A stretch of DNA of 64,000 nucleotides, taken from positions 1-64,000 of the forward strand of contig NZ_JADBGR010000102.1 in NCBI RefSeq assembly GCF_014892515.1, read 5' to 3'. A program made the translations under genes and the position numbers. Below the pieces are notes generated by a model, which had not been told where the DNA came from, searched no databases, and saw only the letters and a program-made list of their open reading frames with translations. The number at the start of each line of letters is the position of its first letter. Positions within the stretch are counted from its first letter, which is position 1. This stretch comes from Myceligenerans pegani (lineage in GTDB: Bacteria; Actinomycetota; Actinomycetes; Actinomycetales; Cellulomonadaceae). Positions 38,600 to 62,285 of the stretch are shown piece by piece.

Positions 38600-39922
38600 T
38601 CAGGGCGCCGCCTGGGCCGGGTCGGTGCCTTCGTCACCCGGTTCCATCGGTTCCGGTACCTGCGCGGGAGCCGCGGTCCCGAGCGTCACGCCTTGCTGTG
38701 CCATGAACGGCTCGGGATCCACGGCCTGCGCGTTCATCCGTACCTCGAAGTGGAGGTGGCAACCGGACGAGGTGCCCGCACCGGCCGGGTCGACCCGTGA
38801 GTCACCGCCCATCGACGCGATCTGCTGCCCTGCCTCGACGATGTCCCCGACGGACACGAGGTTCGTCCCCGTCAGCAGGTGCCCGTAGGTCGTGTCCAGG
38901 CCGAGCCCGTGCTCGATGCGGATGGTGTTCCCCGTGCCCCAGCCCGTCCCGCCGGAGATCACGACACGGCCCGTGGCCGCCGCGTACACCGGCGTTCCAC
39001 AGGCCGCCGCGATGTCCTGTCCCTGATGGAACCGTGACGCTCCCGCGATGCCGGTGTTCCGTGGGCCGTAGCCCGACGCCTTCGTGCCCACCGCGGGATT
39101 CGCCCACCCACCGGCGCTCACCGCGGCCCGACCGATCGCCCCGGTGAGGCACGGCGCCCCCGGTGAGGCCCCCTGGATCGACGCGGACAACGCCTCGAGA
39201 TCCTGTTCGTCCGCGCCGCTGACCAGCCGCATCACCTGCAGCGCGCGGTCCCAGTAGCTGGCGTAGTGGTACGGGTCGGCGTTCCGCTGCGCCTTGTGCG
39301 CGGCGATGGTCGGTTCCATCGCCTGCCAGCCCTCGACCGCGAGCAGCCGGTCGTAGAAGCGGCCCGACGACGCCACGGGGTCCAGTCGCTCCTCGACCGT
39401 CCCGAACCACTTCTGCTCCTGGAACATCCCGATCGACGAGGTCAGGGAGCCGTCGGGGTTCCGTACGCCGAATCGGTCGTCGCCGTAGGTCAGGTTTCGC
39501 ATGCCCGACTCGCCGAGGGCCGTCATCAGGGCGATCGCCTGTGCTTTCGCCGGCACTCCGCGCTCGGCGCCGACCTGGACGATCACCGTTCCGTTCTGCA
39601 GTTGCTCCGCGGTGAAGCCGCCGGCAGCCTGCTGGGCACCGTCTCCAGCGGCCACCACGACCGACCCCGAGACCCCGCACCCGGAGCCGCCGGTCATGGA
39701 CTGCTGCCCGCCGATCATTCCCGCGACCAGCACCACCATCCCGACCAGCGCCGCCGGCAGCGCGAGCGTCGCCACTCCCAGCACGGCGAGCACGAGCAGC
39801 GCTCGTCTCGTGTGGTCGTCCTTCTTCGGACCCCGGCCCGGCGTCGCCGCCCGCCTCGCAGCCCTGCCCAGCGCCCTCGCCGCGAGCCGGCCGCCCTGCC
39901 TCGCCAGCCGCGACCCGCTCAC
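38600..39922 (-). CDS. M23 endopeptidase with lytic-transglycosylase-like part (VirB1-like), last gene of the T4SS-like operon
   Basis: The 440-aa product has an N-terminal basic region and a membrane segment (ALLVLAVLGVATLALPAALVG), then a lysozyme-like region (about 115-235: AIALMTALGESGMRNLTYGDD) and a C-terminal M23 LytM domain (about 310-420) with RFHQGQDIA and HLHFEVRM, which carry the zinc ligands. It should open peptidoglycan so a channel can pass. GTG 39922 overlaps the stop of the preceding gene (GTGA), so it was preferred over an upstream in-frame start. Similar two-domain enzymes occur in Gram-positive conjugation systems (TcpG, VirB1-like). Confidence 0.85.
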   Translation of the reverse strand: MSGSRLARQGGRLAARALGRAARRAATPGRGPKKDDHTRRALLVLAVLGVATLALPAALVGMVVLVAGMIGGQQSMTGGSGCGVSGSVVVAAGDGAQQAAGGFTAEQLQNGTVIVQVGAERGVPAKAQAIALMTALGESGMRNLTYGDDRFGVRNPDGSLTSSIGMFQEQKWFGTVEERLDPVASSGRFYDRLLAVEGWQAMEPTIAAHKAQRNADPYHYASYWDRALQVMRLVSGADEQDLEALSASIQGASPGAPCLTGAIGRAAVSAGGWANPAVGTKASGYGPRNTGIAGASRFHQGQDIAAACGTPVYAAATGRVVISGGTGWGTGNTIRIEHGLGLDTTYGHLLTGTNLVSVGDIVEAGQQIASMGGDSRVDPAGAGTSSGCHLHFEVRMNAQAVDPEPFMAQQGVTLGTAAPAQVPEPMEPGDEGTDPAQAAP

Positions 39923-40545
39923 GACGGTGGCCTGATCTGCTCCGTGAGCCACGGCGAGCCGCCGTCCGCCCGGACGAGCATCACGGTGTAGGCGCCGACG
40001 TCCGTGGGCACGGTGACCTCCGTGAGGAGTGTCGAGGACTCGTCGACGACGGACGCGGGGCCGGTCACCTGACGCACCGGCACGTTCCGCGGGTCGACGT
40101 CCTCGTACACCACCCGTGCCTGGGGGGTGAGGAGCGGCGAGAGGCCCCGCCACCAGGCCTCGGCGGACTGATCGACGTCGGAGAACGCGGTGACGGCCGC
40201 CGTCGCCGCAGAGACCGCGGCCGTCCGGACGTCGTCGTCCCAGGTCGCCTCGACCTGTTCCGTCGGGGCCCCGTCGGCGTCGAACTCGGGCTCCTCCACT
40301 ACCTCGAGCGCCGGGTCGCCCGGATCGACGTCGCCCTCGGCGACCGCGTCCGTCGGCGGCTCAGCGGAGGGATCGGCGCCCTCCGGGGCGGTCGCCGTGT
40401 CCTGCCGGCCGTCCTGCTCGGCGACGTTCCCGGTGTTCTCGATCCCGTCGCTCCGGCCAAGGCCGTCGTCCCGCGGCCAGCCGATCCACGCCGCCACCAC
40501 GAGGACGACGGCGGTCACCACCACGATCACCACTCTGCGCATCAA
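39919..40545 (-). CDS. Single-pass membrane protein, VirB8/TcpC-like
   Basis: The 208-aa protein has one N-terminal membrane helix (VVIVVVTAVVLVVAAWIGW), an acidic linker (about 30-95) and a soluble outer domain of about 110 aa (AWWRGLSPLLTPQARVVYED). Topology and position match the small VirB8/NTF2-like proteins of Gram-positive T4SS. Homology to VirB8 is inferred from size, topology and context only. It overlaps both neighbours by 4 bp. Confidence 0.65.
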   Translation of the reverse strand: MMRRVVIVVVTAVVLVVAAWIGWPRDDGLGRSDGIENTGNVAEQDGRQDTATAPEGADPSAEPPTDAVAEGDVDPGDPALEVVEEPEFDADGAPTEQVEATWDDDVRTAAVSAATAAVTAFSDVDQSAEAWWRGLSPLLTPQARVVYEDVDPRNVPVRQVTGPASVVDESSTLLTEVTVPTDVGAYTVMLVRADGGSPWLTEQIRPPS

Positions 40546-42608
40546 CGGCCCAGATCTCTCAGGTCACGCGAGCTCGGGTACGACACGACACCGGGAGGGG
40601 CACCGCCTTGCCGTGCGCCGCGGCCGCCCAGTCGTCGTTCCAGGTCGGCGCGGCGCTGGTAGTAGTTCGACATGGCGCGCGCACCGCTGCGTACTGCGCT
40701 TCCGACCGTTCGGGCGCGTCTGACGAAGCCGAGCGCGCGTGCCCCGCCGACCGCCGCGGCGGACGAACCCCCGCTCGCCGCCGCCGCACCCATCTGCAGG
40801 CCGGTACGGGTGACGGTACGGGTCGCGTTCGCCATGCGATCCCTGAGCTTCTCGGACTCCGTACGCGGCGGGGCCTGATCCGTGCGCTTGTCGTGCGCGT
40901 TCGCGTCCGACCCCGGCTCCTGCGCTCCGACGACGGCAGGGATCTGCTCCCGGTCCTGCTCGCGCAGGGTGTTCGCGGCGTCGGACCACTCGCCCGCGGC
41001 GCGGGCGCTCGTCGTCGCGGGATCGCGGCCGTCCGTGCCGCTCGAGCCGTCGGCGGGGGCCGCCTCCTTGTCGGGTCGGTCCGCCGCCGCTCCGGCCGCT
41101 GCGCCCGCGGCCGCCGCGCCGGCTGCCGCGGTGCCGGCCCCTCCGGCACTCAGATCCATGCCGGCAGGGTTCGGGGCCGCGGGGGCGCCGCCGTCGGCAC
41201 CGGAGCCTCCCGAGTCGCCGCCGGATCCCGCCGCGTCGCTCCCGGACGAGGGTGCGGGCCCGAGGCCGATCCCGGCCCAGTCCTTGGCCTTGTTGTAGCG
41301 CTCGGTCCACTTGGCCTGGTTGGCCCACGGCATCGCCTGGGGCTCGCCCACCTGCGACGGGACACCGGCCGTGGCGAGCTTGTCGGCGAGGTTCCGCAGT
41401 CCGGCCCGGACGCTCGTGCCCATCAGGACGTAGAACACGGCGCCGGCCACGACGAGCGTGTTGAACAGGTACAGACGAACCAGGAACGGCATGCCGTCGG
41501 TCGCGTCGTAGAACCCGAGCAGCATCTGCATCCACGCGACGAGGAACATCGTCGCCATCGCCACGAGGATGCAGCCCAGCCCGATGCTCGCGAAGGTGCG
41601 GAACAGCTGGGCGCGGGTGCCGCTGGAGACCACTCCGACGGGCAGCTGCCACAGCAGCTTGATCGCCGACCAGCCCAGCAGCACGACGGCGAACAGCGTT
41701 CCGCCCACGATCACGACGCTCAGGAGCAGGAACACGAAGCCGGTGCTCAGCAGGCTCAGCGTCGAGACCACCTTCGGGGCGTCGATCTGCTGGGCCGACT
41801 CGGCATACCTGTCGTCGCAGCCACCGATGCGCTCGACGGCGTCGTCGGTGCCGACGGCGTCGGTGTACGTGCCCTCGCAACGGGTGTCGTCGATCATCGA
41901 GCCGTAGTTGATGATCTGGTGCGGCGTGCGGATGAGGGTGTCCACCAGCTGACCCTTGAGGCCGTCACGGATGGCCGCGGTGTCGCGCTCGAACGAGGCG
42001 CCCTCGGTGGCGAAGCCGGTGGCGATGTCCATGCCGGCGTCGCGCGACTGCATGATGACGCCGTTCTCGCCCCCGATGGTGCCCATCGGGTTGGCGAGGA
42101 AGCCGGTCGCCAGGGCCGCGATGACGCAACCGATGAGGAGTTCCATGAAGCCGCCCGCGTACCGCCCCCTGAGCAGCCAGAACCCGACGACGAACGCCAG
42201 GATGATCAGGGTCAGGCTCAGCAGTCCGATCTGGGCGATCATCGACTGCACGATGAGGCTCAGGCCGGCGAGCGGGGACAGCACGTAGTCCAGCCAGTCC
42301 ATGCCCAGCACCCAGTCCAGCACCCAGATCTGGACCGCGACGATGTCGCGGTACCAGGACCAGAACATCCCGGCGAGCGTCGAGAAGATCTCGGAGTCGA
42401 CGTTCATCGGATTCCACGCCGGCCCGGTGTCCCACTGCAGGACGAAGCGATCGGTGGAAACGCCGCTCGTGTCCTCGAGGTGAAGTCCGGAGATGCCCGC
42501 AGAGCCGGCGTCGTCGGCCTCCTCGGCGAAGCGGAGAGCGGAGCCGACGCCCCCGGTCCCGAGGTGGCCGGATCTGTGCACGGCGGCGTCGATGAGAGCC
42601 CCGATCAT
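40542..42608 (-). CDS. VirB6/TrbL-like polytopic membrane protein
   Basis: The 688-aa product has about seven membrane segments in the first 430 residues (for example SLTLIILAFVVGFWLLRG, LIGCVIAALATGFLA, FVFLLLSVVIVGGTLFAVVLLGW, ILVAMATMFLVAWMQMLLGF) and a long Ala/Gly-rich hydrophilic C-terminus. It resembles the TrbL/VirB6 channel proteins, which are encoded beside VirB4 in Gram-positive T4SS. ATG 42608 overlaps the stop of the VirB4-like gene by 4 bp and was preferred to a longer frame. Confidence 0.75.
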   Translation of the reverse strand: MIGALIDAAVHRSGHLGTGGVGSALRFAEEADDAGSAGISGLHLEDTSGVSTDRFVLQWDTGPAWNPMNVDSEIFSTLAGMFWSWYRDIVAVQIWVLDWVLGMDWLDYVLSPLAGLSLIVQSMIAQIGLLSLTLIILAFVVGFWLLRGRYAGGFMELLIGCVIAALATGFLANPMGTIGGENGVIMQSRDAGMDIATGFATEGASFERDTAAIRDGLKGQLVDTLIRTPHQIINYGSMIDDTRCEGTYTDAVGTDDAVERIGGCDDRYAESAQQIDAPKVVSTLSLLSTGFVFLLLSVVIVGGTLFAVVLLGWSAIKLLWQLPVGVVSSGTRAQLFRTFASIGLGCILVAMATMFLVAWMQMLLGFYDATDGMPFLVRLYLFNTLVVAGAVFYVLMGTSVRAGLRNLADKLATAGVPSQVGEPQAMPWANQAKWTERYNKAKDWAGIGLGPAPSSGSDAAGSGGDSGGSGADGGAPAAPNPAGMDLSAGGAGTAAAGAAAAGAAAGAAADRPDKEAAPADGSSGTDGRDPATTSARAAGEWSDAANTLREQDREQIPAVVGAQEPGSDANAHDKRTDQAPPRTESEKLRDRMANATRTVTRTGLQMGAAAASGGSSAAAVGGARALGFVRRARTVGSAVRSGARAMSNYYQRRADLERRLGGRGARQGGAPPGVVSYPSSRDLRDLGR

Positions 42609-45600
42609 GAGCGGACCACCGTTCCCGTCGAACTGGTGGGCGTGGTCTTGACGGTCTCCGCGCGGTTCTCGACGAGCGGCGCCATGACCTTGGCACGGCC
42701 GTAGCGCGCCTGGAAGTCGCGCACGAGGCACTCGCCCCGGCGTTCCTCGGGCACTCCGACGGCCGCGTCCATGACGGGGGCGGTGCCCTCGGTGATGAGT
42801 TTGACGAGCTGAGGATCCACGGGGGAGTCCGACGGGAGTCCGTGCAACCAGCGCAGGCCGCGGCGCGCGAGGTTCTCGTCGCGGTGGCGCAGGAGGACCC
42901 GGAACGGGATGAGCCCGCGCACGACCTCGTTCCCGAAGTCCTCCTCGGCGTCGTGGCTACCCAGGAGGAGGGCAGCCTTGTGCTTGCGTCCGTCGCGGAT
43001 GAACATGCCGATCTCCTCCGCCGCCTCCGGCGACGACATGGTCTTGGCGGCCTCGTCCGCCGCGAAGATGTCGAGCCGCGTGCGATCGGCGAAGCAGCGG
43101 TAGCGGGCGAGCGCCGCGATGAGCGCGAACGCGGCGCGGCCGAACACCTTCTCGGCCTTCAGCTCGGCGAACAGGTGTCCGTGCTCGAGGTCGGCCTTGG
43201 ACGGCAGCTGCATCTTGTGCGTGTGCAGCACGATGGCCGGAGCCGTGAGGTCGACCGGTGGCACGCCGTCGTCGAACACCGCCCTGCCGAAGTCGAGCTC
43301 GGAGAAGATGCGCATCTCGTCGGCCAGCAGCCGGGCGCCGGGGAGCTCGCACTCCGTCTCGAGGTGCCGGGCCAGCGAGCCGAGCGACGTGACCCCGTGC
43401 CGGGCCATGTAACCAGGCTGAAGCACCTTGGACAGCAAGACGTTCTGTTCCGACTTGGTCTGCACGCTGAGCAGCACGGTGAGGAACGAGCGGGTGATCC
43501 GTGGTGCCTGGGCCGACGGGAGGATTCGCAACGGGTCGAGCGAGCGTTGCGCGTCCTCGGCGATCTCCACGACCTGGGAACCGGGGATCTCCGACACGGC
43601 GATGCCCCACTCGCCCATGTCGGTGTGGTCGACCGCCATCAGGGTGGCGCCGCGGTCCACGTTGTCCATCGCCACTGACTTCATGGAGACGGAGTTGTGC
43701 GTCGGGATCATGGACTCACCCGCGAGGAACAGGTGTGACTCGGACGCCACCCGGATGCACCGGACCGGCACGGAGGCGACGCGACGGATCTCCTTGACGT
43801 AGCGGTAGGGGTCCCGCGCCGCGTCGGCCGATGCGGTTCGCTCCAGCTGGGTCTCGGCCTTGCGTCGGAGCGTGAAGACGTCATCCGTCGTCGTGAATGC
43901 CACGGTCCACTTCGGGCCGGTGTCGCGGCCGCTGAGTCGGGCACGGCCCGCACCGAGCACGGCACGATGGCCGAGCGTCAGGGCGAGTTCGAGAACATCT
44001 CGCGCGAGACGTGCGTTCGTGTCGGTGAACTCGACCGCGCCCTGTGCCGACACGGCTCCGGCGGAATCCATCAGCCCGGCGAGCAGGGATCTCCGCTGGA
44101 CCGTCCCGGCACGGAGATACACGGCGGGGATGTGCTTGTTCCGGAGGACCCCCAGCGCGCCGAGCCGCCCGGTCAGCGACGAGGCCCGGCGGCACGCCTC
44201 GCACCGGCGACCGGTGCTCGTGGTGGCCATCGTCGTGCCGCACCGGGCGCACGGAAGGGGTGCCAGCGGGGCGATGCCGGCCCGCTGGCCGACGGCGGCG
44301 CACGCCTTGCCGCAGTAGCGGCGCTGTTCGTACCGGGCGGTGTAGACGCTGCCGCAGTGAAGACAAGCGCGCTCCTCGGGCACGAACGCGTCGTCGGTCT
44401 CGTGGGGGAGCGCGACGGCGTAGTCGTGCTCGCCCTTCAGCTTCGTGACCTCGTATCCGCACATCTCGACGATCGAGAGCGCCTCGGGATCCGCCGTGGT
44501 GACGTGAGACCTCGACGAGTTGCCGTTCCCGAGCCACAGCCCGAGGTAGTAGGGGTGCACCGGCAGATCGGCCGGCGGAAGGTCCAGGGCCGCGGCAACC
44601 GGGATCGCGTGGTTGAGCTGCTTTCCTGCCACGAGCGAGTAGCGCAGTTGTTCCGTCGTCGCGACCGTCCCGTGCTCGAACCAGCCAGGGCCGCTCGGGC
44701 CGGGGGTGACGTCGGACAACTCGACGGTGGGATCACCCGCCTGCCTGCGCCTGCCGTTCAGCCTGGCCTGGCGGTCACGGGCCGTACGAGGCACTGTCGT
44801 CCAGAGGTGGTCGGCGTCGGCGACGATCGTCGAGCCGTCCGAGAACTCGACCTCGTAGCAGGTGCGGTTCTGCATCACCGGTGAGACGCCGACGACGTCG
44901 GTGGGCGTCCCGTTCTCGTCGAGCACGCGGTCGCCGGGAGCCAGCTCACCCATCGTGGTCCACCCGCTCGGCGTGGGGATCGGGGTGTCGAGGGCCAGCG
45001 CCTTGCCCGCCCCCAGCTCTCCCACGAAGCCCATCGCGAGGGCGACGTCGAGCTTGTCGGATGCGCCGCCCAGGTTGACGAAGACGGGGTTCGGCCGCGA
45101 GGCACCGTTGCTGATCTCCAGGGCGAACAACGATCCGGAGTTGTCGCCGAGGTCCGTCGTCGCGAACGGAACGGCCGCGGCGAACGAGCGTGCCGTCGTG
45201 ATCTGCGAGTACTCCCGCACGGCGCGCGGGGTCGGCATACCTGGCAGGGTCGCGTCGAAGAGGGCCGCCTGGACCGTCGGGTCGTTGCGGAGCTTGAACT
45301 GCATGGCCGCGAAGTACTTGGTGAGGTCCCGGGCATCGTCGAGCACCTGCTCCGGATCCGGGGCCGACACCGTGAACATCGTCGTGGCGTCGACCTCGAC
45401 CTCGAGCTCGTCGGCGTCCATCACCGCCTGGTACTCGCCCAGGGCGCGAGCGGTGCTGTCCAGCGACGACCCGGCGCGTTCCTCCTCGGAGCGCTGGTCG
45501 AACTGGTCGTTCAGGGTACGGACGGCGCGCCGGTTCCGGCCCGTCACCTCTTCGCGGGACCGCACCGTCATCCGGATCGCCCAGTCGCACGGCACGCTCG

Positions 45601-46444
45601 ACTCGTCCACCCGCCCGATCCACTCGCAGCCGGGGTACACGATGCCGCCGGAGGGCGTGTCGCTGACCACGAGCGTGGACTGGTACGACGCGCGGGCCGG
45701 GTTCTCCGGGTCGATCACCTTGACGTACGGGCGCTTGAGGATCTGCATCGGCGTCAGCCGTTTGCTCGCGTCGGTCTGCCCGGCGGGGTCGATCAGCGCC
45801 CCCGGCAGCACGGACGACCCGGTCAGGTGCAGCTCCGCGTCCAGCGATCCGTGCACCGGGACGTCCGTGTCGAGGCCCAGGCCGCGCTGCATCGCGTGGC
45901 CGAACATCCACGCCATCTCCGCCACCGACGCCGGGCGCGGGTCGAACGCGGACGGCATCTCCTTGCGGAGCAGCTCCGCCTGCGCCGCGCGCTCGCCGAT
46001 CGCGTGCTTCGACGGCACCGCCCGGGGCAGCATCAGTTGGTCCTTCAGCGCCGACCAGCTCGCCTGCAGCGGCTCCAGGACCGCCTTGGCGCCCGGGTTC
46101 GGCAGCGGCGCGGCGATCCAGTGGACTCTCCGGCCGATCTCGATGTGCTCCAGGAAGTCGAGGGTCGCGTTGCACTCCGCTGCCCACGCCTCGTGCTCGG
46201 CCACGTCCACGCCATCGACCATCGCCTCCACCACGGAGACCGGATCCGTCGCCGCGACCAGCCCCAGGTGCAGGGACTCGCCACGCAACGCGCGGTACAG
46301 GGCGGTGTGATGCCGCCGCGCGGCGTGTTTCTTGTCGTCGGGTTGGTAGGCGTACGGAATGGGCGACACCCGCCAGACGGCCCACACGGTCCCGGAACGG
46401 GTCCACATGAGGCCGTCGGTCAGGGCGGAGATGTGGCTGAGCAT
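42605..46444 (-). CDS. VirB4/SCO6880-like secretion ATPase carrying an intein
   Basis: The 1279-aa reading frame holds an 843-aa ATPase of the SCO6880/VirB4 type interrupted by a 436-aa intein (residues 482-917). After splicing the Walker A motif is restored as GELGAGK-S. Walker B is LDIFAADEA (about residue 1140), followed by the VirB4-type region KHKAALLLGSHDAEEDFGNE. VirB4 proteins energise pilus assembly or substrate transport at the inner face of a T4SS. The N-terminal 250 residues lack signals. The ATG overlaps the upstream gene stop. Splicing is required for activity, because the intein separates the P-loop lysine from the Ser that follows it. Confidence 0.88.
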   Translation of the reverse strand: MLSHISALTDGLMWTRSGTVWAVWRVSPIPYAYQPDDKKHAARRHHTALYRALRGESLHLGLVAATDPVSVVEAMVDGVDVAEHEAWAAECNATLDFLEHIEIGRRVHWIAAPLPNPGAKAVLEPLQASWSALKDQLMLPRAVPSKHAIGERAAQAELLRKEMPSAFDPRPASVAEMAWMFGHAMQRGLGLDTDVPVHGSLDAELHLTGSSVLPGALIDPAGQTDASKRLTPMQILKRPYVKVIDPENPARASYQSTLVVSDTPSGGIVYPGCEWIGRVDESSVPCDWAIRMTVRSREEVTGRNRRAVRTLNDQFDQRSEEERAGSSLDSTARALGEYQAVMDADELEVEVDATTMFTVSAPDPEQVLDDARDLTKYFAAMQFKLRNDPTVQAALFDATLPGMPTPRAVREYSQITTARSFAAAVPFATTDLGDNSGSLFALEISNGASRPNPVFVNLGGASDKLDVALAMGFVGELGAGKALALDTPIPTPSGWTTMGELAPGDRVLDENGTPTDVVGVSPVMQNRTCYEVEFSDGSTIVADADHLWTTVPRTARDRQARLNGRRRQAGDPTVELSDVTPGPSGPGWFEHGTVATTEQLRYSLVAGKQLNHAIPVAAALDLPPADLPVHPYYLGLWLGNGNSSRSHVTTADPEALSIVEMCGYEVTKLKGEHDYAVALPHETDDAFVPEERACLHCGSVYTARYEQRRYCGKACAAVGQRAGIAPLAPLPCARCGTTMATTSTGRRCEACRRASSLTGRLGALGVLRNKHIPAVYLRAGTVQRRSLLAGLMDSAGAVSAQGAVEFTDTNARLARDVLELALTLGHRAVLGAGRARLSGRDTGPKWTVAFTTTDDVFTLRRKAETQLERTASADAARDPYRYVKEIRRVASVPVRCIRVASESHLFLAGESMIPTHNSVSMKSVAMDNVDRGATLMAVDHTDMGEWGIAVSEIPGSQVVEIAEDAQRSLDPLRILPSAQAPRITRSFLTVLLSVQTKSEQNVLLSKVLQPGYMARHGVTSLGSLARHLETECELPGARLLADEMRIFSELDFGRAVFDDGVPPVDLTAPAIVLHTHKMQLPSKADLEHGHLFAELKAEKVFGRAAFALIAALARYRCFADRTRLDIFAADEAAKTMSSPEAAEEIGMFIRDGRKHKAALLLGSHDAEEDFGNEVVRGLIPFRVLLRHRDENLARRGLRWLHGLPSDSPVDPQLVKLITEGTAPVMDAAVGVPEERRGECLVRDFQARYGRAKVMAPLVENRAETVKTTPTSSTGTVVRS
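43694..45001 (-). mobile_element. Class 3 intein in the Walker A motif, homing endonuclease degenerate
   Basis: This 436-aa intein starts ALALDTPIPTPSGWTTMGEL and ends IPTHN before Ser. Position 1 is Ala, not a nucleophile. The class 3 signature is present: Trp67 (block B, ADADHLW), Cys415 (block F, VRC) and Thr434 (block G, PTHN). Between the splicing blocks lie two LAGLIDADG-like motifs, LGLWLGNG and LAGLMDSAG, whose catalytic Asp positions are Asn and Ala. Eight cysteines in two zinc-ribbon pairs (protein residues 694, 697, 711, 715 and 732, 735, 748, 751) lie between them. The insertion point GK/S is the same P-loop site used by many DnaB inteins. Confidence 0.92.
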
Positions 46445-47061
46445 CAGCCGTCCTTCCTGCGGAGCTTGCCTGCGAGGAGTTCACCGACGCCGGTCAGGGT
46501 TGCGGTGTCCCGGTCGTCGCCGTGCACCAGGTCGGTCGGGGTGAGGGGCGGCAGCGGCATCTCACCGGTGCCCGTGGCGACCTCGCGTCGGTCGACGTCG
46601 TCCACCGGCACCAGATCCGCGCCCGTCCAGCCGCGCGTGCGCGCCAGCCGCGCCGCGCGATCGCCGTCGGGCAGCAGCACCATGACCCGGTGGCTGATCG
46701 TGCGTGGTCGCTGGACCACGAGACGTCCGCCGGACAGGCGTCCGGGGCTCGTGGTGAGGTTGAGCGCGTCCATCACCCAGGTCGCCGGGTTGCGGCCGGT
46801 ACTGGGGATCTTGCCGGTGAGCCACACCGTGCCGACCACGATTCCCGCTGCCAGCAGCACGTTCATGAACCCGCCGAGGTGCGCCCACAACGGCGTCGTC
46901 TGCCACAGCACGAGGCCCATGAGGAAACCCGCTCCGACCTGCGTGATCGTATACGGACCGCCCCAGATCCGCCCCCCGCTCGGCATCTTCCCCACGAGCA
47001 TGGGGATGCGCCGGGCCCGGGTGTAGAACTTCGCGGTCTCCAGCTCCGGTTCGTCCACCAC
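46444..47061 (-). CDS. SCO6880-associated PrgI-like membrane protein
   Basis: The 205-aa protein has a short cytoplasmic start (FYTRARRIPMLVGKMPSG), two close membrane helices (QVGAGFLMGLVLWQT and GFMNVLLAAGIVVGTVWL) and a soluble C-terminus of about 120 aa. The size, topology and gene position directly ahead of a VirB4 ATPase match PrgI-family proteins of Gram-positive T4SS. Its stop overlaps the start of the ATPase gene by 1 bp. Confidence 0.7.
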   Translation of the reverse strand: MVDEPELETAKFYTRARRIPMLVGKMPSGGRIWGGPYTITQVGAGFLMGLVLWQTTPLWAHLGGFMNVLLAAGIVVGTVWLTGKIPSTGRNPATWVMDALNLTTSPGRLSGGRLVVQRPRTISHRVMVLLPDGDRAARLARTRGWTGADLVPVDDVDRREVATGTGEMPLPPLTPTDLVHGDDRDTATLTGVGELLAGKLRRKDG

Positions 47062-47085: not shown

Positions 47086-47403
47086 TCAGACCGTGGTGGT
47101 ACTCACGACCGCCGGCATGCTGAACTCGTCGTCCGTCAGTTCCTTGGTGACGTTGATACCACCGTTGACCAGCCAGAGGACGATGCCGCCGACGATCGCC
47201 GACATGATGATCGCGGCGATCGACATCTTGGTCTTCACCGCGGTGATGACCACCATGAGGATGACGATCACAAAGGTCACGGACTCGATGGCGACCTTGA
47301 CCTCCTCGGACTTCACGGTGATCAGATCGAGGAAGCCTCCGCCGCCGGATGTCCGGGCGGCTGTGACCAGTTCCGGGGCAGCGGTCAAGAGCTCTGTGAA
47401 CAT
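47086..47403 (-). CDS. Small two-TM protein, VirB2/TrbC pilin-like
   Basis: The 105-aa protein has a short N-terminal segment and two hydrophobic helices (about 40-58 and 63-83: VTFVIVILMVVITAV and SIAAIIMSAIVGGIVLWLV). Small two-helix proteins next to PrgI and VirB4 are often pilin-like VirB2 or channel subunits. No cleavable signal is evident. The assignment rests on size, topology and context. Confidence 0.55.
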   Translation of the reverse strand: MFTELLTAAPELVTAARTSGGGGFLDLITVKSEEVKVAIESVTFVIVILMVVITAVKTKMSIAAIIMSAIVGGIVLWLVNGGINVTKELTDDEFSMPAVVSTTTV

Positions 47404-47416
47404 GGTTCCCTCTCCT

Positions 47417-48634: not shown

Positions 48635-48906
48635 CGCGTGCGCACCTCGTCGGGCAGTCCGTTCGAGAGGTCGCGGGACAGCCGGGCACGAGCGGCCCGC
48701 GCGCTGCGGGTGCGGGGATTCTCCAGGGCGTCCGCGATCCTGTGCGCGGTGTCGTCGTTGCCGAGGGGATCCTGCGTGAGGGCGGCCACCAGCGCGTCGA
48801 TGACCGGCTTGACCTCTCCGCGGACGGCGTGCACCTCGGCCGTGTCACGCAGGAGCTCCATCGTCACGTCGTCGTGGTGGAGCTCGGGGGTGGGTTCTTT
48901 GCTCAT
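48631..48906 (-). CDS. Small hypothetical protein, first gene of the T4SS-like operon
   Basis: The 91-aa hydrophilic protein has a charged, helical middle (LLRDTAEVHAVRGEVKPVID). No family is recognised. ATG 48906 has GGGAGAAG upstream. It overlaps the TcpC-like gene (ATGA) and is preceded by the bipartite motif at 48964-48993, so it probably starts the operon. No membrane helix. Confidence 0.7.
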   Translation of the reverse strand: MSKEPTPELHHDDVTMELLRDTAEVHAVRGEVKPVIDALVAALTQDPLGNDDTAHRIADALENPRTRSARAARARLSRDLSNGLPDEVRTR

Positions 48907-49019: not shown

Positions 49020-49035
49020 TGTGACCTAGATCACA
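49020..49035. promoter_or_regulatory. Perfect CRP-type palindrome
   Basis: TGTGA-CCTAGA-TCACA fits the CRP/GlxR consensus TGTGA-N6-TCACA exactly. It lies between the channel operon and the sigma-like gene, 27 bp upstream of motif A on the minus strand and 115 bp ahead of the sigma-like start. A GlxR/CRP-type regulator is expected but not in this window. Confidence 0.75.
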
Positions 49036-49150
49036 CCAAGTGTAAATCTGCGGGCAACAGTAGCGGGCAACAGTCCTCGGCTGCACTGGGCGGCAGGCGC
49101 TGACCAGCGCTCCGGCACCGCGCCGTCCTGACGACCGAGGAGTCACGTCC

Positions 49151-54040: not shown

Positions 54041-54077
54041 TCGGGCATGGGGTACGGCGCGAGAAGGGAACCCGCCG

Positions 54078-54962
54078 ATGACCACCTTTCTCGCCATCGC
54101 CGCCGGTCTCGCGGTCGGGATCGGCGCGTGGCTCGTCGTCGTCGGGATGCTGAGGCGCGAGGAGACCCCGCGACCGCCGTCGTCCACCACCACGAAGCCC
54201 TTCGAGGGCCTGCTGCGCCTGCTCGGACTCGACGAGGGCGGGCCGCTGTACTCGAAGCGCCGGACGGTGCTGGTCAGCGCGGGCGCCGGGTTCGTCGTCG
54301 GGATCTTCACCGGTTGGTGGTCGCTGACCGTGATCGTGCCGGTCATGGTGGTGGGGCTGCCGGCCCTGTTCCGGACCACGACGCAGTCGAGCGAGGTCGA
54401 GAAGCTGATCGACCTGACCGCGTGGGTGCGCTCGCTGATCGGCGTGCTGAGCGGCGGCGCGGTCGGGCTGGAGCAGGGCATCGCGGCGACGCTGTCGTCG
54501 GCGGCGCCGTCCGTGCGGCCGGCGCTCGCGCGGCTGGTCGCACGACTGGAGGCGCGGCAGCCGATCAAGCCCGCGCTGTATCGCTGGGCCGATGAGATGG
54601 ACGACTACTCGTCGGACATGATCGCCTCCGCGCTCATCCTCGAATCCGCCAACCGCACCGGTGCCGTCGCCCCCGCGCTCAAACAGCTCGCGGAGTCGCT
54701 GTCGGCACAGGCGCGGGCCCGGCGGGAGATCGAGACCGAGCGCGCGACCGGCCGGGCGACGGTCCGGTGGGTGACGGTGGTGACGCTCGTCGTGCTGGGT
54801 GGCACGGCGATGACCGGATACCTCGACGGGTACGACTCCCCGGTCGGCCAGATCGTGGCCGTCACCCTGTTCGCGGCGTACTGCGCCTGCCTGCTGTGGA
54901 TGCGCCGGATCTCGATGGGGCAGCCGATCCCGCGGTTCCTGCCGCACGAGGGGGGCGCGTGA
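54078..54962 (+). CDS. Tad pilus inner-membrane protein TadB
   Basis: The 294-aa protein has a helix at the N-terminus (TTFLAIAAGLAVGIGAWLVVVG), a second pair near residue 75-105, a T2SS-F type cytoplasmic domain (about 115-225) and two C-terminal helices. It pairs with TadC to form the platform on which TadA acts. It overlaps tadC by 1 bp (TGATG). Confidence 0.88.
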   Translation: MTTFLAIAAGLAVGIGAWLVVVGMLRREETPRPPSSTTTKPFEGLLRLLGLDEGGPLYSKRRTVLVSAGAGFVVGIFTGWWSLTVIVPVMVVGLPALFRTTTQSSEVEKLIDLTAWVRSLIGVLSGGAVGLEQGIAATLSSAAPSVRPALARLVARLEARQPIKPALYRWADEMDDYSSDMIASALILESANRTGAVAPALKQLAESLSAQARARREIETERATGRATVRWVTVVTLVVLGGTAMTGYLDGYDSPVGQIVAVTLFAAYCACLLWMRRISMGQPIPRFLPHEGGA

Positions 54963-55900
54963 TGTTCCTCGGCAGCATCTGGCCGTCCGCGATCGCCGGA
55001 GCCGTGGCGGGGCTGGGCCTCTGGCTCGTCATCCGCGCGCTCGTGCCGACGCAGCCGGGCCTGCAGTCCGCCCTCGATCGCCTCAGCGGCGAGGACAAGC
55101 TCGCCTCGATCGAGGTGTCCGACGACGACGGCTCCGGGCTGAATCGCACGGAACAGGTGACCCAGCGGTTCGGTGCCTGGGCGCAGCGGCGGCTCCCGTT
55201 GCCGATGCTCATGCGGGCCGGGCCCAGTGCGGCCGATCTCGATCTCATCGGGAAGACCGCGACCGAGCACTACGGATCCAAGACCCTGGGGGCGGTGGTC
55301 GTCCTGGTGGGCGTCCCGTTCATCGGGCTCATGGCCGGGTTGCTCAACCTCGGCCTGCCCGCGGGGCTGCCGTTCGGTGCCGCTCTCGTGCTCGCGATCG
55401 GCGCGTGGTTCCTCCCGGACCTGGAAGCCCGGAGCAAGGCGCGCAAGGCCCGGCAGGAGTTCACGCGCGCGGTGTCGACCTACCTGGAACTCCTGGCGAT
55501 CGAGCGGATCTCCGGTGCCGGCGCGACGCAGGCGACGTTCGCGGCCGCTCAGGTGGCGGAGTCCTGGCCGTTCCGGCGGATCGCCGAGGCGCTCGAGCGC
55601 GGGCGCTGGGAGGGTGAGCCGCCGTGGACGGCGCTGCGGGACCTGGGGAAAGAGGTCGAGGTCGACGCGCTGGGTGAGGTGGCGTCGATCGTCGAGCTCG
55701 CCGGTACGCAGGGCTCGGCCATTCGTGACCAGCTCCAGTCCAAGGCCGCGGCGATGCGCGACGCGCAGCTCGACGTCGAGCAGCAGATCGCGCACGACGC
55801 GACGGTCCGCATGACCGTGCCGGGGACCCTGACGGTGTTCGTCTACTTCATCATGCTGATCTTCCCGATCGGCGTGACGATGTTCGAGCAGCTTCCGTGA
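54962..55900 (+). CDS. Tad pilus inner-membrane protein TadC
   Basis: This 312-aa T2SS-F-family protein has helices at about 5-25, 95-145 and 280-305 with a conserved cytoplasmic domain (EVASIVELAGTQGSAIRDQLQ). It is the usual partner of TadB. It is followed by 161 bp without a gene, holding bipartite motif A before the pilin genes. Confidence 0.88.
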   Translation: MFLGSIWPSAIAGAVAGLGLWLVIRALVPTQPGLQSALDRLSGEDKLASIEVSDDDGSGLNRTEQVTQRFGAWAQRRLPLPMLMRAGPSAADLDLIGKTATEHYGSKTLGAVVVLVGVPFIGLMAGLLNLGLPAGLPFGAALVLAIGAWFLPDLEARSKARKARQEFTRAVSTYLELLAIERISGAGATQATFAAAQVAESWPFRRIAEALERGRWEGEPPWTALRDLGKEVEVDALGEVASIVELAGTQGSAIRDQLQSKAAAMRDAQLDVEQQIAHDATVRMTVPGTLTVFVYFIMLIFPIGVTMFEQLP

Positions 55901-56004
55901 GGGCCGGATTCCCGCGGGCGTGACGCCGTCGGCGAACAGCAGGCGACAGTTCGTGGCAAGGACTTCACAGCCGCAGAATTTCGGCGAAGACTCGTGTCGC
56001 ACGT

Positions 56005-56034
56005 GTCACACGAACCGGATCTTGCCCATTTGTT
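56005..56034 (+). promoter_or_regulatory. Bipartite motif A (pilin-operon copy)
   Basis: GTCACACGAACC, 7-bp spacer, GCCCATTTGTT, same as the copy at 48964-48993 (23 of 23 block positions and equal spacing). It lies 27 bp before the pilin start codon. Overlapping it is an imperfect palindrome TGTCG-CACGTG-TCACA (55995-56010) that resembles a degenerate CRP site. Confidence 0.65.
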
Positions 56035-56061
56035 GATTCCGAGAGCACCCCAGGAGTTGCC

Positions 56062-56370
56062 ATGTCCACTGAACAGCACCAATCCGGCCGGCCGGTCCAC
56101 GCGGTCGCGGGCGTCGCCGTCCGGGCGCACCTGCGCGCGAACGGGGCCCGCGGGCTGATGGGCCGCGCCTCCGCACGGCTCGCGGAGCGCGGCTCCGAGC
56201 TGCGTACGCGCCTTGCCGCGCGGCGTCAGGGCCTTCCCGAGGACGCGGGCCTCGAGTCGATCGAGGTCGTCGTGCTGTCCGTGGTCGGTCTCGGCATCGC
56301 CGTCGGGCTCGGCCTGGCGATCCAGGGGCTCGTGGAGAGCTACATGACCGATCTAGTGCGCGGGGGATGA
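56062..56370 (+). CDS. Flp-type pilin-like small protein
   Basis: The 102-aa protein has a long basic N-terminus and one helix. AG-LESIEVVVLSVVGLGIAV fits a prepilin cleavage site G/LESIE with Glu at +5, followed by the hydrophobic assembly helix. It is longer ahead of the site (about 66 residues) than a typical Flp leader. It is directly downstream of motif A. Probably the major pilin. Confidence 0.75.
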   Translation: MSTEQHQSGRPVHAVAGVAVRAHLRANGARGLMGRASARLAERGSELRTRLAARRQGLPEDAGLESIEVVVLSVVGLGIAVGLGLAIQGLVESYMTDLVRGG

Positions 56371-56805
56371 GTGAGGCAGCGCACACGCCGAGAACCACCC
56401 TTTCGCGTGCCGGCCGGGCCGGATGCCGAGAGGGAGCGAGGCGCTGCCTCCATCCAGACGGTGATCACGTACCCCGTGGTGCTCCTGCTCATCTTCGGCA
56501 TCGTCCAGGGCGTGATCTACTTCCACGCGCAGAACGTGGCGCGCTCGGTGGCGAACGGGGCCGTCCAGGCGGCCCGGCTCGAGAACGGCACGATTGCCGA
56601 CGGGTACGCCGAGGCGGCTGCGCGACTCGACCGCGGACGGGACGTGTTCGCCTCGGTGGAGGTCTTCGTCGATCGAGACGAGGAGGTCGCGACGGCGACC
56701 GTGGAGGGGCTCGCACCGTCGCTGGTTCCGGGGTTCCGAGGGCTACGCGTGGAGCAGACCGCGACCGGTCCCGTCGAGCGCTTCACGCCGGCGGTGGGCC
56801 CATGA
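56371..56805 (+). CDS. TadE-like pseudopilin
   Basis: The 144-aa protein carries the TadE pattern RGAASIQTVITYPVVLLLI with a single helix then an extracellular domain of about 100 aa. GTG 56371 begins right after the pilin stop. Overlaps the next gene (ATGA). TadE/TadF-like pseudopilins help pilus assembly and adhesion. Confidence 0.82.
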   Translation: MRQRTRREPPFRVPAGPDAERERGAASIQTVITYPVVLLLIFGIVQGVIYFHAQNVARSVANGAVQAARLENGTIADGYAEAAARLDRGRDVFASVEVFVDRDEEVATATVEGLAPSLVPGFRGLRVEQTATGPVERFTPAVGP

Positions 56806-57332
56806 GCGGTGTCCTCCGGAGCCGCCGGGCGCAGGCCTCGCGGTCGCCTCTGCCTCGCGTTCGCGGGTCCTCGCCGCCGTTCCGGCCGTCCAGGGCCGGT
56901 TACCCGCGCGACGACACCGCGGAGCAGGGCAGCGTCGCGATCAACACGGCCGTGATCTTCCCGATGGTCCTGCTCATCGCAATGCTCCTGGTCATGGCCG
57001 GCCGGATGGTCCTGGCCCAGGGCGCGGTGCAGTCGGCGGCGAACGAGGCGGCCAGGTCGGCGTCGATCAGTCGCACGGCCGCGACGGCAGAGGTCTCCGC
57101 GTCCCAGACCGCGCACTCCACGCTCGACAACTCGGGCATCGCCTGCACCTTCACGAGGGTCGAGCCCGTGCTCGACGCCTTCCTGCTGCCCCTCGGGACC
57201 GTGGGCGAGGTGCGGGTCGACGTGGCGTGCGACGTCCCGCTCGCGGATCTCGGCCTTCCGGGAGCCCCGGGTACCTGGAGGATGCACGCGACGGGGACGT
57301 CGGTGCTGGACGCCTACCGGGGAAGGGGCTGA
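56802..57332 (+). CDS. Second TadE-like pseudopilin
   Basis: The 176-aa protein has a basic, Ser/Pro-rich N-terminus (about 45 aa), the helix INTAVIFPMVLLIAMLLVMA and an outer domain of about 100 aa with two Cys. It belongs to the TadE/TadF family by position and helix. ATG 56802 overlaps the previous stop. Confidence 0.78.
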   Translation: MSGVLRSRRAQASRSPLPRVRGSSPPFRPSRAGYPRDDTAEQGSVAINTAVIFPMVLLIAMLLVMAGRMVLAQGAVQSAANEAARSASISRTAATAEVSASQTAHSTLDNSGIACTFTRVEPVLDAFLLPLGTVGEVRVDVACDVPLADLGLPGAPGTWRMHATGTSVLDAYRGRG

Positions 57333-57333
57333 C

Positions 57334-57849
57334 GTGGGCAGTGTTCTCGGAATCCACCGGGCCCGGCCGTCGCGAGGGCTCGCACCGCGTGTCCTCGCGT
57401 CTTCCCTCCGGCGGCGCGGGGCCGATCGCCGGCGTGACGGCGCGGAGCGGGGCGAGATCAACATCCTCGTCGCCGGGCTCGTGCCCGCCCTGATCATCGC
57501 CATCGGGCTGGTGGTCGACGGCGGCGGGCGGCTCCAGGCGGCCGACCACGCCCAGTACGCGGCGGAACAGGCCGCGCGCGCCGGCGCACAGGAGCAGGAC
57601 ATCTCCGAGGCGCAGTACGGCCGCCCACCGGTGCTCGACGAGGCGGCCGCAGTCGCCGCCGCTCAGGCCCACCTTGCCGCGGCCGGCGTGTCCGGCCAGG
57701 TCGACTACGTCGAGAACGCCTCCATAGGCGTCAGCACCACCGTCACCTACCGAACGAAGTTCCTTGCCCTGATCGGCATCCGCTCACTGTCCGCGGAGGG
57801 ATCCGCGGAAGCCAGAGCCGTGCGCGGTATCACCCAGGAGGGATCCTGA
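57334..57849 (+). CDS. TadG/TadE-like pilus-associated protein
   Basis: The 171-aa protein has a basic N-terminus, a helix starting RGEINILVAGLVPALIIAIGL and a small outer domain rich in Ala/Gln. It resembles the N-terminal part of TadG and Flp-associated proteins. It overlaps the LysM gene by 1 bp (TGATG), so all pilin genes and the LysM gene form one operon. Confidence 0.72.
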   Translation: MGSVLGIHRARPSRGLAPRVLASSLRRRGADRRRDGAERGEINILVAGLVPALIIAIGLVVDGGGRLQAADHAQYAAEQAARAGAQEQDISEAQYGRPPVLDEAAAVAAAQAHLAAAGVSGQVDYVENASIGVSTTVTYRTKFLALIGIRSLSAEGSAEARAVRGITQEGS

Positions 57850-60800: not shown

Positions 60801-62285
60801 ATGGGCACCGCCGAGCGCACCCGGCTCGAGGGCCTGGTCGAGCGGGTTCCCGGCGTCGGTATCGCGGCGGTGACGTCGAGTGCGGAGATCGGCGAGTGGA
60901 TGCTCGACCTGAGCGGCGAGCTCACGGGAGGCGACAAGTCTCGCGGCGTTCTCGTGCCCGCCTACATCGCCGTGCGCCCGCAGCAGCTCGACGCCGACAC
61001 CTACGTCCAGGCGCTCGAGCTGCTCGGCGACCCGGAGCCGGTGGCCGGCCCGGCATGGGCACGCAACCTCGCTCCGGAAGAGCCGGAGCTGGTCGAACCG
61101 GAGGCGTTGCCGGACTTCGACGAGATCGCCCGCACGGGCGCAGACGCCGACGCAGAAGTCGTTGCAGAGGATGTCGTGGAGGCTCCGGTGGCGGAGAAGA
61201 TTGCGGTCGAGGTCGGCGCGGGAGCCGGAGGGGGCGTGGACGCGCGGCCCACCTCAGGTTCGGCGGGGGCCGCGGCGGTCGACCTGGCCGGAGACCCGAC
61301 CGGCTCGGACGTCGCGCCGGTGCCGGTGACACCCGTCGGCCCCGACGGCCCGGATGCGGGCGAGGGGGCCGGCGGATGGGACGACGGCGCGAACCCCTGG
61401 GTGAAGTCCCTCGACGAGGGCGAATCCGCCGCCGACGAGAACGGCACTCTCGACACCGTGGCCACCACGACCGCCGTCGTGCACGATGACCTGGAGGTTC
61501 CGGAGGAGCCGCAGCCGGCGCGGACCCCCGTCGTGCGGGTCCTCGGCACCGTCGAACTCGCGGGATGTGCTGGGACGGACCTGCCCGCCAGCCATCAGCG
61601 ACAGGCCATGGAACTCGTCGCGTTCCTGGCGTTCAATCCCGGTGCCCGAGGGTCGGACATCTCACGGGCGCTCTGGCCCTCGCGGGAGCCCAACCTCGCG
61701 ACGCGGCGGAGTGCCGTCTCCCGGGCACGACGCTGGCTCGGCACCGACGCCTACGGCTTCGAGTACCTGCCGCGCTACTGGTCGACCGACGACGGGTCGC
61801 AGGTGGATCAGGAGAAGGCCGGCTACCGGCTACGCGGCGTGACGACGGACTGGGACCTGTTCTGCGAGTTGGTGGGCCCTGACCTGACGGCGGCGCCGCT
61901 GGACGACCTGCGCCGCGCGCTGGAACTGGTGCGCGGGGTGCCGTTCCAGGACACGCCACCGCGCAAGTACGTGTGGGCCGAGGTGCTGATGCAGGAGATG
62001 GCCGCCGGCGTGGTCGACGTGGCGCACGAGGTCTCGCGTCGCGGGCTCGCCGAGGGCGACCTGGCTGTCGCGCGCGAGGCGTCGCGTGTCGGGCGGATCG
62101 CCGACCCGGCCGATGAGCGCTCGTGGCGCAACTCGATCCGGACGGAGTACGCGAGCGGGCGGATGGACGCCGCCGGCCGCCTGATCGATCGCCTCCGCGA
62201 TCACCTGGAGCAGCTCGACATGGAGCCGGAGCCGGAGACGGAGGAGCTGATCAGCGAGATCGACGCGGCGGGCAAGGATCGCTGA
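57849..62285 (+). CDS. Giant LysM membrane protein with C-terminal BTAD regulatory domain
   Basis: The 1478-aa protein has three membrane helices near residues 38-60, 80-105 and 122-140, two LysM domains (about 234-293 and 328-385, both with PGD/RGDxLWxIA), an acidic Asp/Glu/Ala-rich linker (390-700), a further helix (TAAGVGGLLAAGILTLLAA) and a large C-terminal part ending in a winged-helix plus bacterial transcriptional activator domain (about 1224-1478: VRVLGTVELAG ... LVAFLAFNPG). LysM binds peptidoglycan; BTAD occurs in SARP-type regulators. It may join cell-wall sensing to pilus or channel gene control. Membrane topology puts LysM outside. Confidence 0.85.
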   Translation: MSTTTERKAAATPSEASGGASSQGPAPGAGGLAGRVVRGVLSVALLLALVVGIPIALWAFGVPLLGGDLSWARFVSVMSTPDVTGEVVLSLVTVVGWVAWATFALAVLVEFVAVVRGVRAPRLRGLGLQQRLAAVLVGAVVAMVLATPTTGEAVASSQVVDPVDGRSADPVASSVLESHPGDGTADPTAGSTPANADRHGGQAAGPEASPVKLTKTRAETKAESARASSDANRKTYTVQPGDSLWRIAQETLGDGTRFKEIAHLNYGAQQDDGRALDGSHWVRPGWVLTLPDDASGPSVHQAVDAAFAEDLAPAGDVAPVSEVRPAGTRDVTVQRGDTLWGIAEEELGDGAKYPELYEASRSTTQPDGRRLTDPDLIYPGWQVTVPAADEAETSASDVEPAPEPDTGESGSGTGAGDVADESGDAGADPASDADAAGDAAGDDTAGDPATEEDGASDGDASEGAGPVGEQVDEPVDEDALDEGLPSDEVPADRSADRPADEAGEQPTADGAAAEETTDPAPRGAQRGEKETVPTANEQSGSGDDGASSPGSESAPEEEAPALDKVEDLDTETPEIEESAPATEGAGARQDDETAAAAVPPGGAVDEASGQDDVGTPGEGRDQPDTAGTTDAHDAPAYQEVTPDDLAGEPSLDPAAAAAPDIAESAPTTQGPAGVAAPESSEAASAAAPQPEPAISAALVDASLSDELLEAFDVRTAAGVGGLLAAGILTLLAARRDRARRRRRPGERIALPAPGSPSAELETDLRAVSDKLGREQVDIALRTLAGWHRERGLALPGVRVARLKSGEFIELYLDRAAELPPPWVSTTDRYVWQLPAGENPAVASDKATPDLMESPYPSLVTLGHDDEDAHLMVDLENVGCLDIRGSDIAAQATLAALAVELATSLWADDLQVTVVGALSDLPGVVDTGRIRHVPSVAGIVRELEARAADVDRTLAQVGAVDLSDARGRGLAMDAWTPEILLVGESMGTAERTRLEGLVERVPGVGIAAVTSSAEIGEWMLDLSGELTGGDKSRGVLVPAYIAVRPQQLDADTYVQALELLGDPEPVAGPAWARNLAPEEPELVEPEALPDFDEIARTGADADAEVVAEDVVEAPVAEKIAVEVGAGAGGGVDARPTSGSAGAAAVDLAGDPTGSDVAPVPVTPVGPDGPDAGEGAGGWDDGANPWVKSLDEGESAADENGTLDTVATTTAVVHDDLEVPEEPQPARTPVVRVLGTVELAGCAGTDLPASHQRQAMELVAFLAFNPGARGSDISRALWPSREPNLATRRSAVSRARRWLGTDAYGFEYLPRYWSTDDGSQVDQEKAGYRLRGVTTDWDLFCELVGPDLTAAPLDDLRRALELVRGVPFQDTPPRKYVWAEVLMQEMAAGVVDVAHEVSRRGLAEGDLAVAREASRVGRIADPADERSWRNSIRTEYASGRMDAAGRLIDRLRDHLEQLDMEPEPETEELISEIDAAGKDR

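Follow-up and report, generated by a model that had tools for sequence, protein, structure and literature searches.

Conjugation of the pCW3-type plasmids of Clostridium perfringens relies on a Tcp system that includes the protein TcpC, and we know of no Tad pilus in this system. Published work attributes no major pilin to the Gram-positive classes of type IV secretion system (T4SS) (PMC12102498). According to their published description, the linear Cutibacterium acnes plasmids p15.1.R1 and p09-9 carry a tad locus together with FtsK, VirB4 and TcpC, and the link between pili and conjugation was left unclear by the authors (PMC5696575). Another C. acnes plasmid, pTZC1, has a T4SS operon and is reported to be transferable (PMC10100872), and the conjugative IncI2 plasmid TP114 is described as being aided by a type IV pilus (PMC9045228). 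Here we describe a chromosomal locus of Myceligenerans pegani in which a T4SS operon and a Tad/Flp pilus operon form one composite unit. The window that we analysed consists of the first 64,000 bases of contig C89 (NZ_JADBGR010000102.1; 95,390 bases) of this 5.87 Mb genome. Our results suggest that the unit is probably a plasmid transfer module that has been domesticated on the chromosome.

Genes were predicted with a codon model and domains were assigned from Pfam and NCBIfam (Table 1). The T4SS operon comprises eight genes on the minus strand (38,600-48,906), in the order p91, VirB8/TcpC-like protein, a protein with two transmembrane (TM) segments, a protein at the position of PrgI, VirB4-like ATPase, VirB6-like protein, p204 and a muramidase-M23 hydrolase. 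It lies head to head with a sigma-70-like gene followed by the Tad set (49,187-62,285), which runs on the plus strand as CpaB, CpaE, TadA, TadB, TadC, pilin, three TadE/G-like proteins and a LysM-BTAD protein. Several hallmarks of a Gram-positive conjugative T4SS are present: the VirB4 ATPase, the VirB6 and VirB8/TcpC channel proteins (with VirB6 and VirB8 matches under curated cut-offs) and a wall hydrolase. The Tad/Flp set (TadA, TadB, TadC, CpaB, CpaE and pilins) is complete in one cluster, with CpaE and the pilin assigned from position and homology. A preliminary description of this DNA had named these T4SS and Tad genes, and our gene calls, domain matches and comparisons of position and homology recovered them at about the same places; the sigma-70-like gene between the halves (49,187-50,062) and a 436-residue intein within VirB4 were absent from it. 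Its placement of the locus near oriC also stands: DnaA, DnaN, GyrA, GyrB, ParA and ParB are all encoded at 4.9-25.4 kb of the same window, and the composite locus lies ~20 kb from dnaA.

The unit resembles the pCW3-type system in that its VirB8-like protein weakly matches TcpC, its VirB4-like protein weakly matches TcpF and its plasmid relatives possess an FtsK-type ATPase; it differs in having no TcpA-like ATPase. A 14-row profile of the VirB8/TcpC-like family gave a single match in PDB, 3ub1 (E=0.004), which we take to be TcpC, and a search of PDB with a VirB4 profile yielded no chain at E 0.01. Like the C. acnes plasmids, as far as their published description goes, the window unit brings together Tad, VirB4 and a TcpC-like protein on one element; those plasmids carry FtsK whereas the window unit is chromosomal and has none, a comparison drawn from the description and not from the sequences. 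TP114 likewise unites a filament of type IV with a transfer system in a single element but, as reported, it is enterobacterial, its pilus is of type IVb and not Tad, and its conjugation works.

Relatives were also found on four plasmids, pXCEL01 (NC_013531), pLMA7 (NZ_KJ599675), pCPRO01 (NZ_CP052758) and pAL1 (NC_009453), which share the core T4SS gene order of the window, a divergent gene at the sigma position and Tad genes on the same plasmid. Unlike the window, all four possess an FtsK/TcpA-like ATPase. On plasmid pXCEL01 (contig G036:C2 of our genome set, pCPRO01 being G172:C2), ParA is accompanied by a Tad set, LysM-BTAD, sigma, all eight T4SS genes and a protein of FtsK/SpoIIIE type; Tad genes are likewise combined with T4SS and FtsK on pLMA7 and pAL1, and ParA lies near the Tad genes in pXCEL01, pAL1 and pLMA7. 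In pAL1, a BLAST comparison did not match the gene that occupies the sigma position to our sigma set. Plasmid pFiD188 carries T4SS and FtsK, and the 42 kb of it that were read contain no annotated Tad gene. Three further contigs of the family (G171:C4, G215:C20 and G102:C26) encode ParA between sigma and CpaB and an FtsK-like protein past the M23 gene (the next gene on the first two, the third on G102:C26), and they are presumably plasmids as well. Both ATPases recur widely: 419 and 459 PLSDB records match two VirB4 queries and 175 match TadA (E 1e-40). We compared VirB4 and TadA positions by hand from 40 and 30 VirB4 rows and 50 TadA rows; among the matches listed, 20 records appeared in both sets, with a VirB4-TadA distance of at most 27 kb in 15 records and of 33-136 kb in five Rhodococcus plasmids.

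The two operons are also kept together on chromosomes. A contig scan of genomes yielded 15 loci (2 Myceligenerans, 11 Promicromonospora and 2 Antribacter), whose 10-kb flanks end before the LysM gene. The layout is preserved in 13 of them, covering the three genera, with the full set of T4SS genes, sigma, CpaB, CpaE, TadA, TadB, TadC and the pilin. The other two are cut by gaps or contig ends: L016 contains N runs and misses the middle genes, and L017 is a 9.8-kb contig reaching only CpaE. The consistent separation in relatives that the preliminary description had named as evidence against its reading was therefore not found. MFS and prs genes adjoin the T4SS end in 13 relatives. The N-terminal part of VirB4 is 82-96% identical across the three genera, and the closest named relatives by this part are Myceligenerans salitolerans (96%) and M. 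indicum (95%).

This VirB4 was detected in 24 of 221 genomes of the family (E 1e-10) and in 34 of 394 genomes of the class (E 1e-40), the window genome among them. TadA was sought at E 1e-60 in all 57 VirB4-positive genomes, with distances measured by hand; in 40 of them it shares a contig with VirB4 and is no more than 30 kb away (22/24 of the family, 14/14 of family f38, and G484, G550, G445 and G312). The 17 genomes without TadA near VirB4 include two whose contig ends near the locus (G216 and G250), the remnant in G224, and four with TadA on other contigs (G248, G311, G460 and G277). The 15 loci overlap these genomes in species, and the two sets are therefore not independent. In f38 the unit is chromosomal too, four of its genomes consisting of one contig. 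Six f38 loci and G484 present T4SS, sigma and CpaB-CpaE arranged as in the window, with the sigma gene reversed in G484; G250 presents T4SS, sigma and FtsK up to the contig end, and G550 has a sigma match with TadA 16 kb away. T4SS genes are present in G593, G271 and G345, where the 20 kb that were read gave neither a sigma nor a Tad match.

Trees were computed for VirB4 (25 rows), sigma (19 rows) and TadA (19 rows) with midpoint roots and long branches flagged; the sigma tree leaves out pLMA7 and G550 (matches below 60 bits), and no sigma match was obtained for pAL1 or pFiD188. The three trees recovered the same main groups. In each of them the seven chromosomal rows group as a single clade (support 100/100, 94/100 and 100/99 for VirB4, sigma and TadA), with G171, G102 and G215 nearest to this clade, G036 paired with G172, and f38 as one clade. 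Because the linkage is conserved and the tree groups match, we infer that the T4SS and the Tad pilus have been inherited as a unit. A chance neighbourhood is rejected by the 13 complete loci out of 15, the linkage in 40 of 57 genomes and the matching tree groups.

It is very unlikely that the locus is an ordinary Tad cluster beside a decaying T4SS remnant with no joint work. Such decay is seen in G224 (genus Promicromonospora; L063, G224:C2), where just the back half of the T4SS is left: the 20 kb that were read contain a 3' piece of virB4 together with virB6, p204, M23 and MFS. This genome has lost both the front T4SS genes and this TadA; its sole TadA match is weaker and on another contig, and the window-type Tad set was not found. 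Elsewhere, the T4SS-Tad linkage holds in several families, and the identity of VirB4 across three genera given above also speaks against decay. Nei-Gojobori estimates across three Myceligenerans-type genomes gave dN/dS values of 0.03-0.12 for TadA, TadB, TadC, CpaE, sigma, VirB6 and M23, of 0.045-0.049 for the N part and 0.14 for the C part of VirB4, and of 0.17-0.18 for VirB8. Values were 0.08-0.15 for p205, 0.08-0.27 for the two-TM protein, 0.24-0.34 for p204 and 0.33-0.42 for the fast-evolving CpaB; the flanking genes gave 0.04-0.05 (prs) and 0.17 (MFS). Most genes of the unit are under purifying selection, and these low values reject a dead remnant.

The chromosomal units differ from their nearest plasmid relatives in the coupling ATPase. 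Using a profile of seven plasmid FtsK/TcpA-like sequences, we found this ATPase at full length (E 4e-246 or better) in all five plasmid-type carriers of the family. Four of these match by construction since they gave rows to the profile; G172 did not. None of the 19 chromosomal carriers of the family presented it, with only short matches to FtsK-like genes (E 4e-9 or worse). A diverged coupling ATPase was found in 14/14 f38 genomes, on the VirB4 contig in 11, and G250 has one at full length. In the window genome, PF02534 and PF12696 gave no match and PF10412 a single match of 48 positions, searches that coupling proteins of unknown types would escape. The chromosomal copy has no match to the motor that would drive DNA into the channel, and this machine therefore probably does another job now.

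The preliminary description had seen no relaxase, coupling protein or integrase and had considered conjugation unlikely. This is supported for self-conjugation, as contig C89 has no TrwC or VirD4-type match (TrwC being the relaxase family searched genome-wide), and no integrase was recognised among those C89 genes that were given to Pfam, which extend to base 95,390. C89 also encodes a DDE transposase, at ~93.8-95.4 kb. An integrative and conjugative element (ICE) at this locus is unlikely, in agreement with the earlier reading, given these negatives and the same MFS and prs neighbours in 13 relatives, attachment sites not having been searched. The contig begins at the window start, and no VirD4-type or TrwC match was found beyond the window on C89. 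TrwC matches were present in 12 of 14 genomes, with one on the locus contig ~63 kb away in Antribacter G005. In the window genome they lie on contigs C65, C11 and C44, with pieces on C75, where the matches spread over two reading frames (G000:C75:36635-37698). These relaxases are what would be expected if the unit were conjugative in trans and served relaxase-bearing elements elsewhere in the genome; we consider this improbable in view of the near absence of VirD4-type matches from the same genome and its lack of a TcpA-like ATPase. The check for both partners elsewhere, which the preliminary description had proposed, thus turned up relaxases and nothing of VirD4 type beyond the 48 positions.

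The gap between the T4SS operon and the sigma gene presents a putative operator. The palindrome TGTGA-N6-TCACA occurs once in the window, in this gap, and it is perfect in all 18 aligned gaps (15 chromosomal and G171, G215 and G102); L017 has it as well. It resembles the GlxR consensus TGTGANNTANNTCACA as published (PMC4254451). The motif GGGCAACAG was found in at least one copy in 16 of the same 18 gaps. In six of six f38 loci, the sole site within 20 kb that deviates at one position or none sits between sigma and CpaB; no site with at most two mismatches was found in the T4SS-sigma gap of the six f38 genomes or G484, and G250 has a two-mismatch site. As a background, 312,748 bp contained 8 sites with one mismatch or none, these loci's own sites included. 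A putative CRP-type operator beside the T4SS is conserved, though not universal. A promoter motif common to both halves had also been proposed; we rejected it, as the palindrome and GGGCAACAG were found in none of the 18 sigma-CpaB gaps, a comparison limited to these two motifs with no systematic motif discovery. In the sigma-like family, Pfam region r2 was matched in 6 of 12 rows and r4 (PF04545) in 3 of 12, the window protein being under the cut-off. The sole PDB matches of a 12-row profile were the extracytoplasmic function (ECF) sigmas CnrH (E 0.03) and RpoE (E 0.08). A structure model of the protein had a mean pLDDT of 52.9.

Several observations weigh against a module domesticated from plasmids. 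Ten of the 57 VirB4-positive genomes gave no TadA match at E 1e-60, and this T4SS therefore does not need a Tad pilus everywhere. The six f38 maps showed no M23 or p204 match. The deep branch order differs among the VirB4, sigma and TadA trees, whose roots are only midpoints. No CRP site with at most two mismatches was found in the T4SS-sigma gap of pXCEL01, pCPRO01, pFiD188, pAL1 or pLMA7, unlike the window. VirD4/TrwB-type matches occur elsewhere in the genomes of some chromosomal carriers; over all genomes searched, PF12696 matched in 6 of 14 and PF10412 in 11 of 24. Finally, 18 of the 33 genomes with more distant VirB4 also lack a coupling-ATPase match (E 1e-20), including the Tad-bearing G484. 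A diverged or different coupling protein may therefore escape our profile; we dropped the idea that this absence is special to the chromosomal clade and claim it only relative to the nearest relatives and f38.

With these points in mind, our best reading of the sequence remains a chromosomal unit that is no longer self-conjugative and that may serve DNA uptake or protein export. The VirB4 motor, the VirB6 and VirB8 channel proteins, and the PrgI-like and two-TM proteins would form a conjugation-type T4SS, and the muramidase-M23 hydrolase would open the wall. This T4SS and the Tad pilus would have been inherited as one unit with the sigma-like regulator and the CRP-type operator, and pilus and channel would act together. 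In an ancestor of Myceligenerans, Promicromonospora and Antribacter, the unit would have settled near oriC, lacking both the FtsK/TcpA-like ATPase and the ParA pair present in the nearest plasmid-type relatives. The direction of this move was presumably from plasmid to chromosome, and the machine would now move something other than its own DNA.

DNA uptake is the use that we tentatively favour, with protein export next. In the case of uptake, the Tad pilus would bind and pull DNA, and the T4SS without coupling ATPase would carry it through the wall to ComEC. This is allowed by the lack of a coupling-ATPase match in 19/19 chromosomal carriers, the selection on VirB4 and TadA, the wall hydrolase, the presence of ComEC in 10/10 carriers searched, and the prepilin peptidase encoded on another contig of the genome. 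However, ComEC is widespread and therefore says little for uptake. In Micrococcus luteus, an actinobacterial Tad pilus handles DNA: Tad genes and a neighbouring FtsK-family gene are reported to be required for transformation (PMC8467076). That system differs in having no T4SS of its own in the published description and in using the FtsK-family gene, of which no counterpart was seen at the window locus. H. pylori is described as employing T4SS parts for DNA uptake (reference in PMC6668835). Alternatively, a T4SS without relaxase might send proteins out while the Tad pilus attaches, in export or cell-cell contact. We regard this as possible if doubtful: the muramidase-M23 hydrolase and the LysM protein belong to the unit, but no linked effector candidate was recognised, and a coupling protein is described as present in most protein-secreting T4SSs (PMC12102498).

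The preliminary description had called the locus a candidate undescribed envelope machine. That it is one composite chromosomal unit holds, whereas "undescribed" is too strong because the combination of Tad, VirB4, TcpC and FtsK has been published for the C. acnes plasmids (PMC5696575) and both ATPases recur on many plasmids. In the open-licence literature searched, as far as its texts were accessible, we found no prior report of a chromosomal T4SS-Tad composite without coupling ATPase, and this form appears to be new. Chromosomal T4SSs of Patescibacteria are similar in being of monoderm type, mostly without relaxase and near dnaA in some cases; they belong to another phylum, and the accessible text makes no mention of Tad (PMC12102498). 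A conserved VirB4-like gene near the origin has been described in Frankia (PMC2266912).

Within VirB4, the Walker A motif GELGxGKS is split by the intein in the window genome. A split VirB4 match was found in 2 of the 24 family genomes bearing this VirB4, the window genome and G223, at the same insertion point; the motif is uninterrupted in the VirB4 frames of the other relatives inspected. The intein has Ala at position 1 and no Cys there, and it is homologous to DnaB inteins (6riy, 1e-32), which we take to be of class 3. VirB4 can work only if the predicted intein splices out. The DNA of some 200 codons past the intein is less Myceligenerans-like than the DNA before it, which is suggestive only of a possible co-conversion.

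The remaining features of the unit are listed in Table 1. The N-terminal part of the M23 hydrolase matches PDB 8b2h (5e-8) and the muramidase 8b2e (2e-6), and its gene start is uncertain as the gene calls of relatives reach further upstream. For p204, the window protein has no Pfam match and a PDB search gave noise only. The single prepilin peptidase (A24) match of the window genome, to PF01478, lies on contig C5, outside the cluster. In three plasmid-type carriers a prepilin peptidase is found on the T4SS contig itself (G036:C2:14935, G172:C2:136537 and G171:C4:8987). The C-terminus of CpaB (~51190-51310) contains repeated Gly-Asn-Ser-Gln-(Ser/Thr)-Gly units. Beyond the window, a DISARM-like defence island lies at ~79.0-92.4 kb of C89, with DrmA (2e-236), DrmB (2e-74), and UvrD-like helicase, Vsr-like and cytosine methylase genes.

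Table 1. Features of the composite T4SS-Tad unit, in window coordinates, with the evidence for each assignment.
Feature	Position	Strand	Evidence
Two-domain wall hydrolase: TM, muramidase-like domain, M23 endopeptidase	38600..39793	-	PF01551 1e-25; H-x3-D and HxH present
p204, one-TM protein	39919..40533	-	Homologues in 13 chromosomal loci and G036, G172, G171, G215, G102
VirB6-like multi-TM protein	40542..42608	-	NF046089 5e-5, under cut-off; 5 TM segments (hydropathy)
VirB4-like ATPase, 843-residue exteins plus intein	42605..46444	-	PF12846 (AAA_10) 5e-29; TcpF model 1e-8, under cut-off
Predicted intein, 436 residues, LAGLIDADG-like stretch, in VirB4 Walker A (GELGAGK^S)	43694..45001	-	DnaB intein structures 6riy/6rix 1e-32, 6bs8 1e-30
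p205, PrgI-position protein, directly upstream of VirB4	46444..47061	-	Position, TM, homologues in plasmid-type loci
Two-TM protein	47086..47403	-	TM calls; TcpD model NF040685 E=0.025, noise level
VirB8/TcpC-like protein	47417..48634	-	PF12642 6e-5, under curated cut-off; PDB match of family profile, 3ub1 (E=0.004)
p91, small conserved first gene of T4SS operon	48631..48906	-	Homologues in 14 chromosomal loci and G102, G171, G215
CRP/GlxR-type palindrome TGTGACCTAGATCACA	49020..49035	+	Sole window match at <=1 mismatch
Direct repeat GGGCAACAGT-N3-GGGCAACAGT	49052..49074	+	Begins 32 bp past palindrome start
Sigma-70-like (ECF-like) regulator	49187..50062	+	TIGR02937 2e-7, under cut-off
CpaB/RcpC-like	50414..51364	+	SAF PF08666 2e-5
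CpaE/TadZ-like	51369..52208	+	Position and homology across loci; no meaningful Pfam match
TadA/CpaF ATPase	52436..54040	+	PF00437 5e-26; TIGR03819 7e-43, under cut-off
TadB	54078..54962	+	T2SSF 1.5e-7
TadC	54962..55900	+	T2SSF 0.0015, under cut-off
Flp-like pilin candidate	56062..56370	+	Size, TM, position; no Pfam match
Three TadE/TadG-like minor pilins	56407..57849	+	TadE 8e-9 and 1e-7; third by position and homology
LysM and BTAD protein, 1,478 residues	57849..62285	+	PF01476 4e-13, PF03704 2e-8; homologues adjoin plasmid Tad genes

It is conceivable, and we put this forward with reserve, that these loci represent a distinct actinobacterial pilus-assisted T4SS with the Tad pilus as contact organelle of the conjugation channel, kept on plasmids and chromosomes of several families, which in Promicromonosporaceae would have become a fixed chromosomal machine under CRP-type control, without a DNA-coupling ATPase and possibly reversed to import DNA. 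Whether the Tad pili encoded on actinobacterial plasmids are part of the transfer apparatus is left open in the published description of the C. acnes plasmids (PMC5696575), and the linkage and tree groups reported here indicate that the two form one inherited unit. In soil bacteria, the chromosomal copy would allow the pilus and the channel to be deleted singly, with no plasmid transfer interfering.

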